A DNA stretch of 64,000 nucleotides from Roseimaritima multifibrata (lineage in GTDB: Bacteria > Planctomycetota > Planctomycetia > Pirellulales > Pirellulaceae): positions 3,906,001 through 3,970,000 of the forward strand of contig NZ_CP036262.1 of the NCBI RefSeq assembly GCF_007741495.1, read 5' to 3'. The position numbers and the translations under genes were made by a program. Numbering within the stretch: position 1 is the first letter of the stretch; every line of letters begins with the position of its first letter. This document shows positions 10,149-43,582 of the stretch, piece by piece. The notes under the pieces are model-generated. The model ran no database searches. It saw nothing but the letters and a program-made list of their open reading frames with translations, and was not told the origin of the DNA.

Positions 10149-10395
10149 TTAGCCAGTACGGCGATGCACCGAGTCACGCTAATGCCAGAGCAGTTGACTA
10201 TTTTGAGGATGCGGTTTCAGCAAATGCTTGGGGGAGATCACGCCCGAGACGTGATAGCCCGCAGATTCAGCTGAAACCGCAGGGAAAGGGGGCGCTGGCG
10301 GACTTAGGCTGTGAATTTATCCGGCCGACCGTTTGTTTGTGTGCGACAACGCGATAGCCGCTGGTTCAACCACGCATTACCCGGCGGATAACGCC
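10149..10395. other. gap after hsp20 with nested stem-loop
   Basis: No gene. A 12-bp stem TGCGGTTTCAGC (10210-10221) with GCTGAAACCGCA (10270-10281) encloses an inner hairpin ATCACG (10237-10242) with CGTGAT (10250-10255). The 72-base structure lies about 60 bases after the hsp20 stop and may end or stabilise the heat-shock message. It has no U-tract. Confidence 0.5.
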
Positions 10396-10540
10396 CAGTG
10401 CCATCTACTTTTTGCATCTGCGAGCAGATTTCCTAGCGGATCGGCGCAAGCCGATCCGGCAAATTCATTGTGTTTTCGATGCGATTGCCGGACGGTTCGC
10501 GCCGTTCCGCTAAGAAAGTAGATGGCATTGGGATAACGCC
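10386..10540. mobile_element. 135-bp palindromic miniature element with 10-bp direct flanks
   Basis: Terminal inverted repeats of 16 bp (CAGTGCCATCTACTTT from 10396 and its complement ending at 10530, one mismatch) bound a 135-bp unit. Both sides abut perfect 10-bp direct repeats GGATAACGCC (10386-10395 and 10531-10540), as a target-site duplication would. Inside, AGCGGATCGGCGCAAGCC and the segment near 10480-10512 are imperfect inverted copies of each other, so the unit can fold almost completely. It encodes nothing. The right half matches the core of the 110-bp tandem array at 41686-42213. Confidence 0.65.
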
Positions 10541-14232: not shown

Positions 14233-14672
14233 GCGGTCTGCTTGCTCGTAAGTGCTTACAGGCCCGCGATAACAAAAAAATCGCATCAACACGTCCATTC
14301 CACGAGCACGCCCATCCCACCAGTACGTCCACCTAACACCGCGTTCAACCAATACCGCGTTCAACCAATACCGCGTTCAACCAATACCGCTTTTGGGAGG
14401 ATCATCCACTCTTGATTCGAGTGGCCGAGGAATTCAGGCAAAGGAACGGTTACTTTCCTGAGCCCGTCTAGGGGAGAGTCCTAAGACTGCACGGCTTGCG
14501 AGTAACCATTTACGAGCGCACATACCAATAACATGATTGGAACCGTTCACATGATGGTTCTTTGCGAACAAGGGCAGGGGAGTGGTTTGCGGAAGTGAAT
14601 CCCGTGTTTGAGCATTACCAGCCATCGGTTGGCTGCCACCACAGTGGCAGGAAGCGAAAATTCATTCGCATC
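14233..14672. other. gene-free gap with a 16-bp tandem repeat
   Basis: The region between the response regulator and the convergent marR gene. It contains three exact copies of ACCGCGTTCAACCAAT at 14338-14385 plus the start of a fourth. No coding frame or terminator with a U-tract is convincing. Confidence 0.6.
14338..14390. repeat. 16-bp tandem repeat, three copies and a part
   Basis: The unit ACCGCGTTCAACCAAT occurs perfectly at 14338-14353, 14354-14369 and 14370-14385, followed by ACCGC. Perfect identity implies recent slippage. Copy number is likely to vary between strains. Confidence 0.85.
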
Positions 14673-15999: not shown

Positions 16000-16744
16000 G
16001 TCTGAGTGTGCAGCCAATAGCGTTGCAACCTGACAAGACGGGTGTGTTTGGATCTACATTTACGGGATCTCAATCCTTGGTCGCTGTCGTTTTTTTCGAA
16101 GATGCAGAAACTTTGCAGCCTTTCGCTCGTGATGTGAAATTTATAACTGGCGAAAGTCTTGCTCCCCTCGCCCCTAAGGAAGCTTTTTGTTGCGGAAAAA
16201 ATCTTAGCTAGCTCATTCCGTGGTCTCGGCCTTTTCGTTTGATTTGGCGGAGCTTGCTTGGAGGAGAGGGGGAATTTTCGCGAGGCGATTTTGCAGTGCA
16301 GGTCCAGATAACGCCCTGCATTTCACGCGATTATGTCATCCCTTGCCTACCTCTGTCGGCCCCCTCTCCCCCAGCCCCTCTCCCCCAAAACAAGCCTTTG
16401 AGCCGCATTCAATTGAACTCGATAGCGAACAGGTGATTCAATATCAAACCTGTTTTAAGCGAGCTTGTTTTGAGGGCGAGGGGAGCCAGATTTTCTTTGC
16501 TAATTCTTTTCATGTTCCGCGCAAAAGCAGCTTGAAACGAAACGTTCTTTCGCGGCGGGAAAGACGCCCCCCCCCTGCTTGATCCTCATCGATACTGGAT
16601 TCGAGAGAACTCGAACCAGACTATTTTCGATCGCTTTGCGTGCATTGATACCAATGGCTTGCGGAAGGGTTAAGATGTCGGCAGGCAAACAGGGAATGGG
16701 ACGGTTCCATTCGACAAAACACCAATGACTGCTGGAAACATTGA
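16000..16744. other. non-coding gap filled by a dispersed repeat
   Basis: Most of the gap (16121-16563) is one copy of a long structured repeat described separately. The rest, including an inverted pair TGGATTCGAG/CTCGAACCAG near 16593-16620, has no coding support. Short frames inside the repeat recur in the second copy only because the DNA is repeated. Confidence 0.7.
16121..16563. repeat. long structured dispersed repeat, copy 1
   Basis: About 440 bases closely matching 31420-31912 (roughly nine in ten positions by eye, same orientation). It is built of nested inverted arms: GCTCCCCTCGCCCC (from 16161) pairs with GGGCGAGGGGAGC (to 16486), and the inner GCTTGCTTGGAGGAGAGGGG pairs with CCCCTCTCCCCCAAAACAAGC. 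Compared with copy 2 it lacks a short GGCTGGGG insertion near 16270. No protein product; a non-autonomous element or structured RNA is possible. Confidence 0.8.
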
Positions 16745-31419: not shown

Positions 31420-31912
31420 CCTTTCGCTCGGGACGTGAAATTTACAACTGACGAAAGTCTGGCTCCCCTCGCCCCTAAGCAAGCTCTTTGGTGCAGCAGA
31501 AATCTTAGCTATCTCATTCCGTGGTCTCTGCCTTTTTGTTTGATTTCGCGGAGCTTGCTTGGGGGAGAGGGGCTGGGGGGGGGGGGGGAATTTCCGCGAG
31601 GCGATTTTGCAGTGCAGGCCCAGATAACGCCCTGCATTTCAAGCGATTATGTCATCCCTTGCCTACCTCGGTCGGCCCCCTCTCCCCCAGCCCCTCTCCC
31701 CCAAAACGAGCCTTTGAGTCGAATTCAATTGAACTCGAAAGCGAACAATTGATTCAATATCAAACCTGTTTTTACGAGCTTGTTTTGAGGGCGAGGGGAG
31801 CCAGATTGTCTTTGCTTATTCTTGCACGTCGCCCGCAAAAGAACGCCCGCCTAAAACCGCATTCGCTCTGCGAATGCAGCTCACAAAGGACCTTCTTTCG
31901 CGGAGCGAAAGG
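31420..31912. repeat. long structured dispersed repeat, copy 2
   Basis: Direct-orientation copy of 16121-16563. Outer arms GGCTCCCCTCGCCCC (from 31461) and GGGCGAGGGGAGCC (to 31802) pair, as do inner arms AGCTTGCTTGGGGGAGAGGGG (from 31552) and the CCCCTCTCCCCCAAAACGAGC region ending near 31712. It contains a run of 14 G (31575-31588) absent from copy 1. Confidence 0.8.
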
Positions 31913-39962: not shown

Positions 39963-41444
39963 CTATTCGCCAACCCTTTCCAGCTTTGCCGCTTTCATGA
40001 TCGCGAGCCACTTCTTTTGAGTTTCCTCGGATGGCTGGTCGACCTTCACAGAATAGGCCAAGCGGTGGACATCGTTGTCTGCCCGAAACAATCGCACCAA
40101 TTGATGACGCTTGGCAAACTGAGGACTGCCCGGTAGTTCAAGGGCAACGATCACAGAGTCGTCCTGGACGTCCAAAATCTGATGCTCCATTTTCGGTTGA
40201 GCCGCTTTCACTTGAGCCACAAATTTTGCGGCGATCTCTTTGCTTGTCCCGATGTTTGCGGCTCCAAGGATCCTTTGGACTTCGACCTGCTCCGTCCAAT
40301 TGGAAATCATTTCTCCCGGCAAATAATAGCGAGCGGTGACTTGACCGTCCGCTTTGTTGCGAATCCCGCATCGCCATCCACGGCCATCCAAATCAACAGA
40401 AACAATTTCTGTCGGTCGAAACATAGCCTCGGTTGCGTTTCGCAAATCGATGGTTTCATGGATTCGTCCTGCTTGGAAATCAACAGCATAGAACGCATAA
40501 ACATACCGTTTGCGGTCGTCCCCCAAATCGACGATCTGATCGGGTTCGCCCAGCAAACCGGTCACGGTTTCTGGAGGAACTCCCACCGTAAAGACGCCCA
40601 TCGATTCAAATTTATGAAACAGTGCAGCCAGCCCCATCGCGGCGCCTGCATGTTTCGGATCCACCTTTACCGCAACGCGCAACTGGGTCCAGGCGCGCGG
40701 ATAATTTCCGATTTGATATAGCGCCATAGCAAAGTTTGCTCGAGCACCAGCATCCAGAGGGTTCGCGGTGGTGGCGGCCTCCAAATCAGGCAGCCGCTGA
40801 GCGATAGCTGCCAGATCGACGGCAGGTACCGGAGCGGGATCCTTTTCGGTCAGATTGGAAGCCATCTTTGGCAATGCTTTTAACTCGCCCTTTGCCGATG
40901 CAGCCGCCGGGGCGCTGGTCGCCGATAGTTTCCCGACGTCATCTAACCGCATAATCTTAAATCTGGAACCGTCCCAAAGGGCCATCACCTCCGCGGTCGC
41001 TTCATCAGTGGTGTGATAAAAACCATAACACTGCGTAATATCAACGTTGGCGCGATCCGCGTGATTCGCAGCTCGTTCAGCTCCGAAAGACTGCGTGGCG
41101 TTACCAAACGCAGCGTCCTTCGTTAACACATCGATTCCGGTCTGCGAAATTTCACTTCGTTTGATAAACCCGTCGAGCATTTCCGGGCGGAAATTCGGAG
41201 GTAGCACGAAGTATTCGGACGCGGAAACATAATCCTCCTGTTCCAATAGTCCAAAGACCTTGTTCAAGGTGTCGATAAGAACTTCCTTGGTCGGCCCCGC
41301 CGGCTGTGCTTCGGCATCCGTTGCGAGCTGCTTCAATCCATCTTGACCGCTGCAGTTGAGCAGCGAGTTCGCGGGCAGCCCAAAACCGCACGCGATCAAA
41401 GATACCAGGCCGAGAACCCGGCAATGGTGCAGACGGTTGATCAT
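39963..41444 (-). CDS. exported TPR-repeat protein
   Basis: About 493 residues from ATG 41444 (a start at 41606 would put 54 unlikely residues before the signal peptide VLGLVSLIACGFGLPANS). The sequence ALPDLEAATTANPLDAGARANFAMALYQIGNYPRAW followed by RVAVKVDPKHAGAAMGLAA shows tetratricopeptide repeats near residues 215-280. The C-terminal half has no recognised domain (ITEP..VTGLLGEPDQIVDLGDDRKRYVYAF). Likely a periplasmic scaffold, function unknown. The 5' flank lies next to a 110-bp tandem array. Confidence 0.7.
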   Translation of the reverse strand: MINRLHHCRVLGLVSLIACGFGLPANSLLNCSGQDGLKQLATDAEAQPAGPTKEVLIDTLNKVFGLLEQEDYVSASEYFVLPPNFRPEMLDGFIKRSEISQTGIDVLTKDAAFGNATQSFGAERAANHADRANVDITQCYGFYHTTDEATAEVMALWDGSRFKIMRLDDVGKLSATSAPAAASAKGELKALPKMASNLTEKDPAPVPAVDLAAIAQRLPDLEAATTANPLDAGARANFAMALYQIGNYPRAWTQLRVAVKVDPKHAGAAMGLAALFHKFESMGVFTVGVPPETVTGLLGEPDQIVDLGDDRKRYVYAFYAVDFQAGRIHETIDLRNATEAMFRPTEIVSVDLDGRGWRCGIRNKADGQVTARYYLPGEMISNWTEQVEVQRILGAANIGTSKEIAAKFVAQVKAAQPKMEHQILDVQDDSVIVALELPGSPQFAKRHQLVRLFRADNDVHRLAYSVKVDQPSEETQKKWLAIMKAAKLERVGE

Positions 41445-42318
41445 GATCTTATCTTTCGCGGAGCGAGGTGTGAAATTTGGTTGACCGAAATGGATAGTAT
41501 CGTCTTCCACGACGCGAAAGTAGTGTTTGCGGGCTTTGCTTTCGCGGGGAACGTGAATGATAAAAGTGACCGTTCCTGAGCGGGTTGCTATTGTACGGCA
41601 ATACATCAGAAAATCCCAATCCGCAGCGTCAGCGAGCGACCGAAAACCCGGTCCGCAATCCCTCGTTTACCAGACTGCGGCATTAGGCGCGAGCCCTCCG
41701 GCCCATACGCCGTGCTTCAGAAGCGATTGCCGGACGGCTTGCGCCGTTCCGCTAAGAAGACGGCCGCAACAAGTCAGCAACCTTCTTAGCGGCAGGGCGC
41801 GAGCCCTCCGGCCCATACGCAACGTTTCAGAAGCGATTGCCGGACGGCTTGCGCCGTTCCGCTAAGAAGACGGCCGCAACAAGTCAGCAACCTTCTTAGC
41901 GGCAGGGCGCGAGCCCTCCGGCCCATACGCAGTGCTTCAAAAGCGATTGCCGGACGGCTTGCGCCGTTCCGCTAAGAAGACGGCCGCAACAAGTCAGCAA
42001 CCTTCTTAGCGGCAGGGCGCGAGCCCTCCGGCCCATACGCAACGTTTCAGAAGCGATTGCCGGACGGCTTGCGCCGTTCCGCTAAGAAGACGGCCGCAAC
42101 GAGTCAGCAACCTTCTTAGCGGCAGGGCGCGAGCCCTCCGGCCCATACGCCGTGCTTCAGAAGCGATTGCCGGACGGCTTGCGCCGTTCCGCTAAGAAAA
42201 TTGATGGCATTGGTCGCAAGCACGGAAACGGAACCCTTTCGGCAACCAGCAGGCGCGACGCACCTACCACCAGGCCCTCAAGACCGCCGCCAACCCGCTG
42301 ACAAGGCAAGGCAGCGAA
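41445..42318. other. gap between TPR and CNNM-like genes with tandem array
   Basis: Both flanking genes are on the minus strand, so the gap holds the promoter of the TPR gene and the 3' region of the CNNM-like gene. Most of it is the 110-bp tandem array 41686-42213. No coding frame is supported; repeated frames inside the array reflect the repeat. Confidence 0.7.
41686..42213. repeat. 110-bp tandem repeat, 4.7 copies
   Basis: Copies start at 41686, 41796, 41906, 42016 and 42126 (each GGCGCGAGCCCTCCGG), giving a period of exactly 110. Each unit holds ACGGC-TTGC-GCCGT and an inverted pair GCTAAGAAG/CTTCTTAGC. The last copy ends in GCTAAGAAAATTGATGGCATTGG, like the right end of the 135-bp element at 10396-10530 (TAAGAAAGTAGATGGCATTG). 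Copies differ at a few positions only (GTGCTTCAG, ACGTTTCAG, GTGCTTCAA). Confidence 0.9.
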
Positions 42319-43398
42319 TCAATCGCTCTTCGGAGCGTCTGGGATTGAATCTGTTTTGATTCCTTGCTTTTCCAAACGGGACTTCCATCGCTCTCGGGCA
42401 AGCATCTGCATGTCGACCGTCACATCCTCCTCATCGACAATCTCCAAACCTAGCAGGGTTTCCAGAACGTCTTCCAGCGTGACGATTCCTTCGACGCCTC
42501 CAAAACGATCCATCACTATCGCGATATGAGCGCGAGCGTTTAGCAGCGTATCAAAAACGGCTGTGATACTATCATCTTCGTGGACCGCAAGAATTTCGCG
42601 AGAAAACGACTCAAGCGGTTGGTCCATTTTCCCCGCAGCGATTGCGGTCAACAATTCATTTTTCAACACAAAACCAGAAATTGCGTCGCGACGCTGATCG
42701 TACAAAGGGATTCGGGAAACAGGGACTGAAGCGATTTCCGAACTGATATCCGCAAGCGTCTTTGATTTCTCCAGCGAAATCACCACGGAGGCTGGCGTCA
42801 TCACGTCCTCCACGGTGATCGATTCAAGCGTCAGAAGGTTCCTTAAGATGCGTGACTCATTCTTCTTTAGCAGCCCCTCACTGGTGCCAAGTTCTGCAAC
42901 CGCAGCGATTTCAGCCCGAGTCACCAATTTCTGCGATTGGTCTCCGGCCAACCACTTCGTCAGAATCTCCGACATCCAGACCAGGGGAAACATCAGCACA
43001 ATAAGCCAGCGGACAAAGATCGAGACCACGCCAGCCAATCGCCGCCAGTGCAGTGCCCCAATCGTTTTCGGGATGATCTCACTTAACACCAGAATCAGCA
43101 ACGTCAGTACCGCACTGATCAAGCCTACATAGTTATCCCCCCACATCGAGGCAGCTTGGGCGCCGACGCCAGCAGCACCAACGGTATGGGCGATGGTATT
43201 CAGACTGAGGATAGCCGACAGAGGGCGATCAATATTCGCTTTCAGAGCGACGATTCGCTGAGCGGATGCTGTCGTTTCCTTCCGCAGATGCGCGATGTAG
43301 CTGGGAGTTATCGAAAGCAAAACCGCTTCGGCAATCGAACAAAGAAACGAAAACCCTATCGCGACAGCTAGATAGGTGAATAGCAGCACATAATCCAT
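42319..43398 (-). CDS. CNNM/HlyC-CorC type membrane protein with CBS domains
   Basis: About 359 residues from ATG 43398 (GTG at 43431 is the other choice). The N-terminal half is a DUF21/CNNM membrane domain with four segments (LLFTYLAVAIGFSFLCSIAEA, LSAILSLNTIAHTVGAAGVG, ISAVLTLLILVLSEIIPKTI, WLIVLMFPLVWMSEILTKW), the SEIIPKTI signature of magnesium-efflux CNNM/CorC proteins. A CBS pair follows (VEDVMTPASVVISLEK, HIAIVMDRFGGVEGIVTLED). The C-terminal CorC_HlyC domain seems absent, since the protein ends soon after the CBS region. Probable ion (Mg2+) transport or sensing. Confidence 0.88.
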   Translation of the reverse strand: MDYVLLFTYLAVAIGFSFLCSIAEAVLLSITPSYIAHLRKETTASAQRIVALKANIDRPLSAILSLNTIAHTVGAAGVGAQAASMWGDNYVGLISAVLTLLILVLSEIIPKTIGALHWRRLAGVVSIFVRWLIVLMFPLVWMSEILTKWLAGDQSQKLVTRAEIAAVAELGTSEGLLKKNESRILRNLLTLESITVEDVMTPASVVISLEKSKTLADISSEIASVPVSRIPLYDQRRDAISGFVLKNELLTAIAAGKMDQPLESFSREILAVHEDDSITAVFDTLLNARAHIAIVMDRFGGVEGIVTLEDVLETLLGLEIVDEEDVTVDMQMLARERWKSRLEKQGIKTDSIPDAPKSD

Positions 43399-43582
43399 AA
43401 GGAAAATCCATTGGGGAATCGCAGAATTCACGCAGTTTAGAGAATTCTCACCGTCCCCACCACGCTAGTCACCCGCTTCCAAAGTTCCCATGCGATTGGA
43501 GGCGAATCAACGGCGATGAAAAGTTGAATCCACGGCGTCAAATGATGGTCGATTGCCGGGCCCGCAAGGGAGCTTGGAATGG

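Follow-up and report, generated by a model that had tools for sequence, protein, structure and literature searches.

Tagged REPs are found as heterodimers, as HH dimers and as dimer clusters reiterated in tandem together with flanking DNA, and several REP families count Rhodopirellula baltica among their hosts (Di Nocera et al., 2013, PMC3733652; this and the other systems compared here are cited from the accessible portions of the papers). In Escherichia coli, BIME-2 elements consist of facing REP units in tandem, with two kinds of palindromic unit (Y and Z2), and the RAYT gene is flanked by BIME-2 (PMC2817692). For the IS4-family element ISRm22, nine copies lie in palindromic repeats (Tobes and Pareja, 2006, PMC1525189). 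BrickBuilt, a minisatellite in a Porphyromonas gingivalis MITE, has internal tandem repeats of 23-bp units, IS5-like ends and 19 copies (PMC4596501). REP dimers in tandem, REPs of R. baltica and insertions of IS4 elements into REPs have been published before; no planctomycete REP/MITE/IS4 composite was found among the titles and abstract openings searched, a scope outside which subscription journals mostly fall.

The locus described here is a tandem array of palindromes in Roseimaritima multifibrata. It is probably a REP/BIME-like tandem cluster that grew in place and whose palindromic arms serve an IS4/MITE system both as cargo and as target. The array shares with BIME-2 the facing units in tandem and the two palindromic kinds, and differs from it in sequence and in that no such link to a RAYT gene was seen. 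Like ISRm22, the IS4-family element of this genome lies in palindromic repeats, here with two of its three copies; unlike what is given for ISRm22, its relatives also use GGC-N4-GCC sites outside arms. Internal tandem repeats and IS-like ends recall BrickBuilt, for which the accessible portion of the paper describes no facing arm pair. The REP families of R. baltica were set beside the arm by description (PMC3733652).

The window array, its edges and its neighboring genes

The window, a stretch of 64,000 nucleotides (genome positions 3906001-3970000), contained a tandem array at 41686-42198 on the forward strand. Tandem Repeats Finder assigned to it 4.7 copies of a 110-bp unit, composed of a facing arm pair plus spacer with alternating arm orientation (period 110, 95% matches, no indels). 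The five near-identical starts 110 bases apart noticed in the preliminary description were thereby borne out, at 41686, 41796, 41906, 42016, and 42126. Any two units differed at 0-5 positions, units 1 and 5 were identical across the 73 compared bases, and a single base separated units 2 and 4. The unit variants alternated as A-B-A'-B-A, an order that suggests exchange of two-unit blocks.

The arms followed one another as RFRFRFRFR, with centre distances of 60 and 50. A representative forward arm of the AGGGC type, TTAGCGGCAGGGCGCGAGCCCTCCGGC, was located at 41786-41812 (plus strand), with other forward arms starting at 41896, 42006, and 42116. The reverse arms were of the ACGGC type, represented by TTAGCGGAACGGCGCAAGCCGTCCGG at 41730-41755 (minus strand), and the others started at 41840, 41950, 42060, and 42170. 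A first forward arm, degenerate or cut, was present at about 41676-41702 (plus strand). Two hairpins had been predicted for every unit. Folding of two of the four full units gave two hairpins each (-31.0 and -31.2 kcal/mol; none of 200 shuffles reached this stability), while the cut fifth unit made only one (-20.2 kcal/mol; 9 of 200 shuffles as good). The array had six Rfam matches, every one to a microRNA model from animals or plants and far under the gathering score; a microRNA identity was rejected, these being chance hits on hairpins.

Directly after the last arm, at 42197-42212, the terminal inverted repeat CAATGCCATCAATTTT (minus-strand reading) formed the right end of the MITE family, with 0 mismatches at genome positions 3948189-3948210. 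At the left edge (41677-41695, read from the sequence with no strand assigned), GCGGCATTA abutted GGCGCGAGCC exactly at the target position. This ambiguous edge may be a forward arm carrying two additional bases, or else the fossilised right end of an IS4-type element that was cut precisely at its target. With a right end only, an ambiguous left edge and no target duplication seen, the array was not classed as an IS4-family MITE.

The array was located 80 bp upstream of a 547-aa ORF in its longest reading (39963-41606, minus strand). It had been placed in the 5' flank of a gene for an exported TPR protein, of which the position stood. The TPR-like stretch was weak, its matches all falling under the cut-offs (best E 0.005), and the product is putatively exported, on the strength of a stretch resembling a signal peptide that was recognised by eye behind an inner ATG; with that ATG the start would lie near 41444. 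Opposite this ORF, the array was faced by the 3' end of a CNNM/CBS-domain membrane protein gene (42319-43431, minus strand). No arm with fewer than five mismatches was found in the neighborhood of the CNNM orthologue in the nine relatives examined, of 19 with a match, and conservation of the array with the gene was rejected. These nine stretches are not clean empty sites, because the 547-aa gene is absent there too.

Two further repeats were observed in the window. A 16-bp unit, ACCGCGTTCAACCAAT, was present at 14338-14390 in 3.3 copies with 100% matches, and a 14-bp doublet, CCCCTCTCCCCCAG, occurred twice, at 16361-16387 and 31677-31703, 15 kb apart.

Arms and arrays in the genome and in Pirellulaceae

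The arm is a palindrome of about 26 bp, TTAGCGG-NN-NGGC-GCRA-GCC-N-TCCGG, and each unit contains two facing copies about 50 bp apart, followed by a spacer. Unique arms were collected from this genome (250) and from relatives (112) with ≤5 mismatches allowed, so that both sets include some chance hits, and compensation was read at the free positions of the pattern. Stem pair 9-20 was CG in 103 and GC in 49 of the 250 own arms, and CG in 43, GC in 32, and TA in 8 of the 112 arms of relatives. These compensated changes agree with the earlier view of the palindromes as capable of forming hairpins. The GCRA loop was found in 138 of the 250 and in 74 of the 112 arms. Under a pattern that admitted G, T or C as the first base, the foot tag was TTAG in 83, CTAG in 44, and GTAG in 8 of the 250 own arms, and TTAG in 34 and GTAG in 18 of the 112 others. 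The mostly TTAG or CTAG tag of this genome is one difference from the GTAG-tagged REPs of PMC3733652; that no RAYT was found beside the arms is another.

G-T pairs in GTAG REPs are taken as a hint of RNA function in PMC3733652. In stem pairs 8-12 of the present arms, G-U pairs were no commoner than A-C mismatches (78 vs 77 own, 18 vs 17 in relatives; added by hand from the same sets with ≤5 mismatches and some chance hits). The preliminary description had considered processed 110-nt RNA products; given this tally and the low Rfam scores, nothing in the sequence points to them.

The genome (G000; 7,216,590 bases) contained 683 arms at ≤2 mismatches, and the control contained none. An exact tandem arm-end pattern had 38 + 43 matches in the genome, and its reversal had 0 + 0. 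A search with the array, in which 40 of 246 candidates were scored, gave at least 140 matches. Fifty places, drawn from the search hits and not a census, were fetched, and 48 of these held 56 arm-bearing arrays with periods of 75-127, two of which overlap in one locus (L101). The arrays were of two kinds, alternating (F R F R) and same-orientation (F F F R or F R R R). The 34 alternating arrays had periods of 92-114.5 (median 101), and the two arm types, ACGGC and AGGGC, faced each other in 27 of them. Clustering of their spacers at 0.75 gave 18 spacer groups, 12 of which had a period of 96-104; single linkage at 0.62 merged 33 of the 34 arrays.

Within one array, loops were on average 0.90 and spacers 0.93 identical; a CRISPR reading was rejected, since its spacers should be unlike. 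Between arrays, the arms were 0.92 and 0.85 identical, and loops and spacers 0.57 each (shuffled 0.50 and 0.47). Of 561 array pairs, 108 by loop and 96 by spacer were more alike than 99% of shuffled pairs. Among the spacer groups were ones of 11, 4, 3, and 2 arrays, and the window array was ungrouped. This likeness above the shuffled level and the shared spacer groups indicate that not every array arose independently.

The origin of the spacers was sought in the DNA around each array. In 28 of 46 alternating arrays (21 of 36 in this genome, 7 of 10 in relatives) the spacer matched the start of the array's own right flank plus the end of its left flank better than all 45 control flanks. In many arrays, then, an arm pair and adjoining local DNA were duplicated in place as one unit. 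A worn arm that went undetected in the flank makes some of the 28 positives trivial, and one array (L210) scored just 2/16. The window array was negative in this test (score -4), and 31 of the 45 controls did as well. A period of about 100 bp over unlike spacers is not accounted for by simple slippage. In one relative (G028; L208 and L228) arms stood 32 bp apart, and some neighboring units were spaced 97-99 bp, despite the shorter arm pair, and others 136-159 bp.

The setting of 54 arrays was scored with genes taken as longest ORFs, not from annotation: 23 lay between tandem genes, 21 between convergent and 7 between divergent genes, and three had no assigned setting. The excess of convergent over divergent settings gave about 0.013 in a sign test calculated by hand. 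None of the 54 arrays was inside an ORF of ≥250 aa. As in REP and BIME sequences, the arm is an imperfect palindrome of 20-40 bp in high copy number and mainly intergenic, and facing pairs are reiterated in tandem, often with flank, the last of which fails for the window array.

Arms at ≤2 mismatches were found in 50 of 199 Pirellulaceae genomes, representing 22 of 68 genera; the other 149 genomes contained none, and the backward control gave 0 in all 199. The largest counts per genome were 720, 683, 501, 455, 246, 78, and 52. Tandem arm patterns were present in 10 of 16 arm-bearing relatives tested.

The solitary MITE and the IS4-family element

A solitary 135-bp MITE with the ends CAGTGCCATCTACTTT and AAGTAGATGGCATTG and one facing arm pair inside was located at 10396-10530 (plus strand). 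It was bounded by perfect copies of the 10-bp target-site duplication GGATAACGCC at 10386-10395 and 10531-10540 (plus strand; 10/10 match; L021). When the array units were compared with this element, both the arms and the terminal repeat at 42197-42212 matched, as the preliminary description had it. Its view that one family exists both singly and as an array was also upheld, in that the solitary copy is a MITE with a duplication and its terminal sequence recurs at the end of the array. A 10-bp duplication (≤2 mismatches) was found at 9 of 30 solitary loci, compared with 0 of 13 end pairs without arms. The end plus arm pattern RTGCCATCNAYTTTCTTAGCGG (≤3 mismatches) had 52 + 62 matches in the genome and 1 + 0 in the control.

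The MITE end CAATGCCATCTACTTT was identical at 14 of 16 positions to CAATGCCACTTACTTT, the end of an IS4-family element. With shared ends, no transposase and a duplication typical of the family, the solitary copy is an IS4-family MITE. Two other arm pairs (L166 and L158) were enclosed by different, longer inverted repeats, CACGAAATAACTTCCCCATTT and TCACTTTTGAA, as if the arm pair also rode in MITEs of other families.

PF01609 matched the genome 15 times, and the matches included a 1525-bp element in three copies with the ends CAATGCCACTTACTTT and ...GCGGCATTG. All three copies were flanked by perfect 10-bp duplications, GGCGATAGCC, GGCGCGAGCC, and GGCTCGCGCC, and the copies with the latter two were inside arrays, cut into an arm. 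The 466-aa transposase scored 146 bits against the NCBI IS4 family model (cut-off 115) and reads the motif Y-2-R-3-E-6-K. The motif is shared with the IS4 family (PMC2266710). In Table 1 of that paper, subgroup IS4 has a length of 1400-1650 bp, duplications of 10-13 bp and ends of the form -AATR--------WTW, with which the ends here, CAATG with TTT at 14-16, agree. By ends, size and duplication only, membership of subgroup IS4 is suggested.

Relatives of the element in Blastopirellula marina DSM 3645 (77% identity) had the duplications GGCTAACGCC or GGCGTTAGCC. Two of three B. marina loci of the element coincided in coordinates with loci of one genome in the family set (G107), and B. marina belongs to Pirellulaceae according to NCBI, by which the set was identified as that family. 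Among 30 loci of the element, a target duplication was detected in 19 and none was detected in 11; 13 of the 19, the own three included, were GGC-N4-GCC. The arm core GGC-GCRA-GCC fits this mostly duplicated site. An end joined to a cut arm was matched 57 times, against once with scrambled ends, which came to about 15-18 places after strand duplicates and false matches were removed by eye. The genome contained 4181 GGCN4GCC sites (control 4114), of which the 683 arms make up at most about a sixth, and two of three IS copies in arms are therefore a mild enrichment.

Another PF01609 element, about 1.8 kb long, was observed at three loci (L059, L060, and L061) with repeated flanks of 80-110 bp, and the L061 copy had an arm on both sides. 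This element has perhaps also inserted in arrays.

Proposed growth of the array and competing explanations

The arm pair, the arrays, the ends, the duplications, the nested insertions and the spread over the family were all observed directly. To these the favored explanation adds a process. Slippage or unequal exchange between direct repeats that can form hairpins would have copied facing ACGGC-type and AGGGC-type palindromes, about 50 bp apart, in place; in many arrays a stretch of local flank, mostly 16-30 bp, would have been copied along with them. In addition, the arm pair rides inside MITEs with IS4-type ends. Because the arm core fits the GGC-N4-GCC target, IS and MITE copies land in arms and make nested units, and such nested insertion would be a second, minor route to arrays. 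The window array, with its worn edges, presumably grew as the other arrays did. It is most likely a selfish repeat tolerated between genes, without a gene-specific job. By analogy with BIMEs, binding of gyrase or nucleoid proteins by the arms is possible.

A classical REPIN driven by a RAYT, the tyrosine transposase being elsewhere in the genome or lost, is the strongest of the alternatives, though still an unlikely one. The arms resemble GTAG-tagged REPs in their TTAG or GTAG foot, their short imperfect palindrome and their facing pairs, and the genome contained eight matches to Y1 transposases. Against this, none of 38 Y1 loci (the eight own loci and 30 of 79 matches in ten relatives) had an adjoining arm at ≤3 mismatches, within mostly 1.5 kb on each side and less in a few cut loci. 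One relative (G038) contained 52 arms and no Y1 match. A RAYT flanked by the repeat, as expected of RAYT-associated REPs and REPINs, was thus absent from these loci, and by linkage in them the RAYT, the usual REP engine, was rejected as the driver. Y1 genes at two loci (L111 and L112) were near repeated palindromes of their own, at least five positions off the arm.

It is somewhat less probable, and in our judgment improbable, that the MITE carries the preferred target of its transposase and that most arrays are the product of nested transposition followed by exchange. In its broadest form, equally doubtful, GGC-GCRA-GCC would be both the arm centre and the IS4 landing site, and a MITE with its own transposase's target as cargo would let the family multiply into itself, seed arrays with a period of about 100 bp and keep insertions off genes. 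The use of GGC-N4-GCC by most IS copies with a detected duplication and the two own copies in arms speak for such nesting, as does an end adjoining a cut arm in the units of four same-orientation arrays (L069, L074, L076, and L092) and singly in a fifth (L103). However, the spacers of the commoner alternating arrays, the type of the window array, mostly lacked such an end, as did other same-orientation arrays (L065, L078, L082, L093, and L109 among them), and the presence of IS copies in arms is only the mild enrichment given above. Nesting accounts for several same-orientation arrays, but not for those without ends nor for most alternating ones. The element was detected at 1e-80 in 16 of the 199 genomes, and G184, G190, G178, and G149, which lead the arm counts apart from this genome, were not among them. 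Its distribution does not track the arm counts, so the IS4-family element is not a general engine, and it was rejected as the driver of arm expansion.

A string of functional hairpins selected at a period of about 100 bp, whether as DNA sites for gyrase or a nucleoid protein or as RNA (terminator, stabiliser or processed product), is the least probable reading, for although compensated stems, the common GCRA loop, the period of 96-104 in most spacer groups and the excess of convergent settings would suit it, compensated stems are shown by any REP without a gene-level job, G-U pairs were not in excess over A-C, the nine CNNM neighborhoods examined had no arm and three quarters of the family genomes had none either.

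On the explanation preferred here, that of a REP/BIME-like cluster grown in place, REP dimers, MITEs and site-selective IS4 elements, which are usually described apart, are joined in one genome in hundreds of copies. From the local flanks of dozens of arrays it can be read how tandem palindromes grow. With a period of about 100 bp over mostly unlike spacers, and no RAYT by the arms examined, the question of what moves and what multiplies these repeats becomes testable in close Pirellulaceae.
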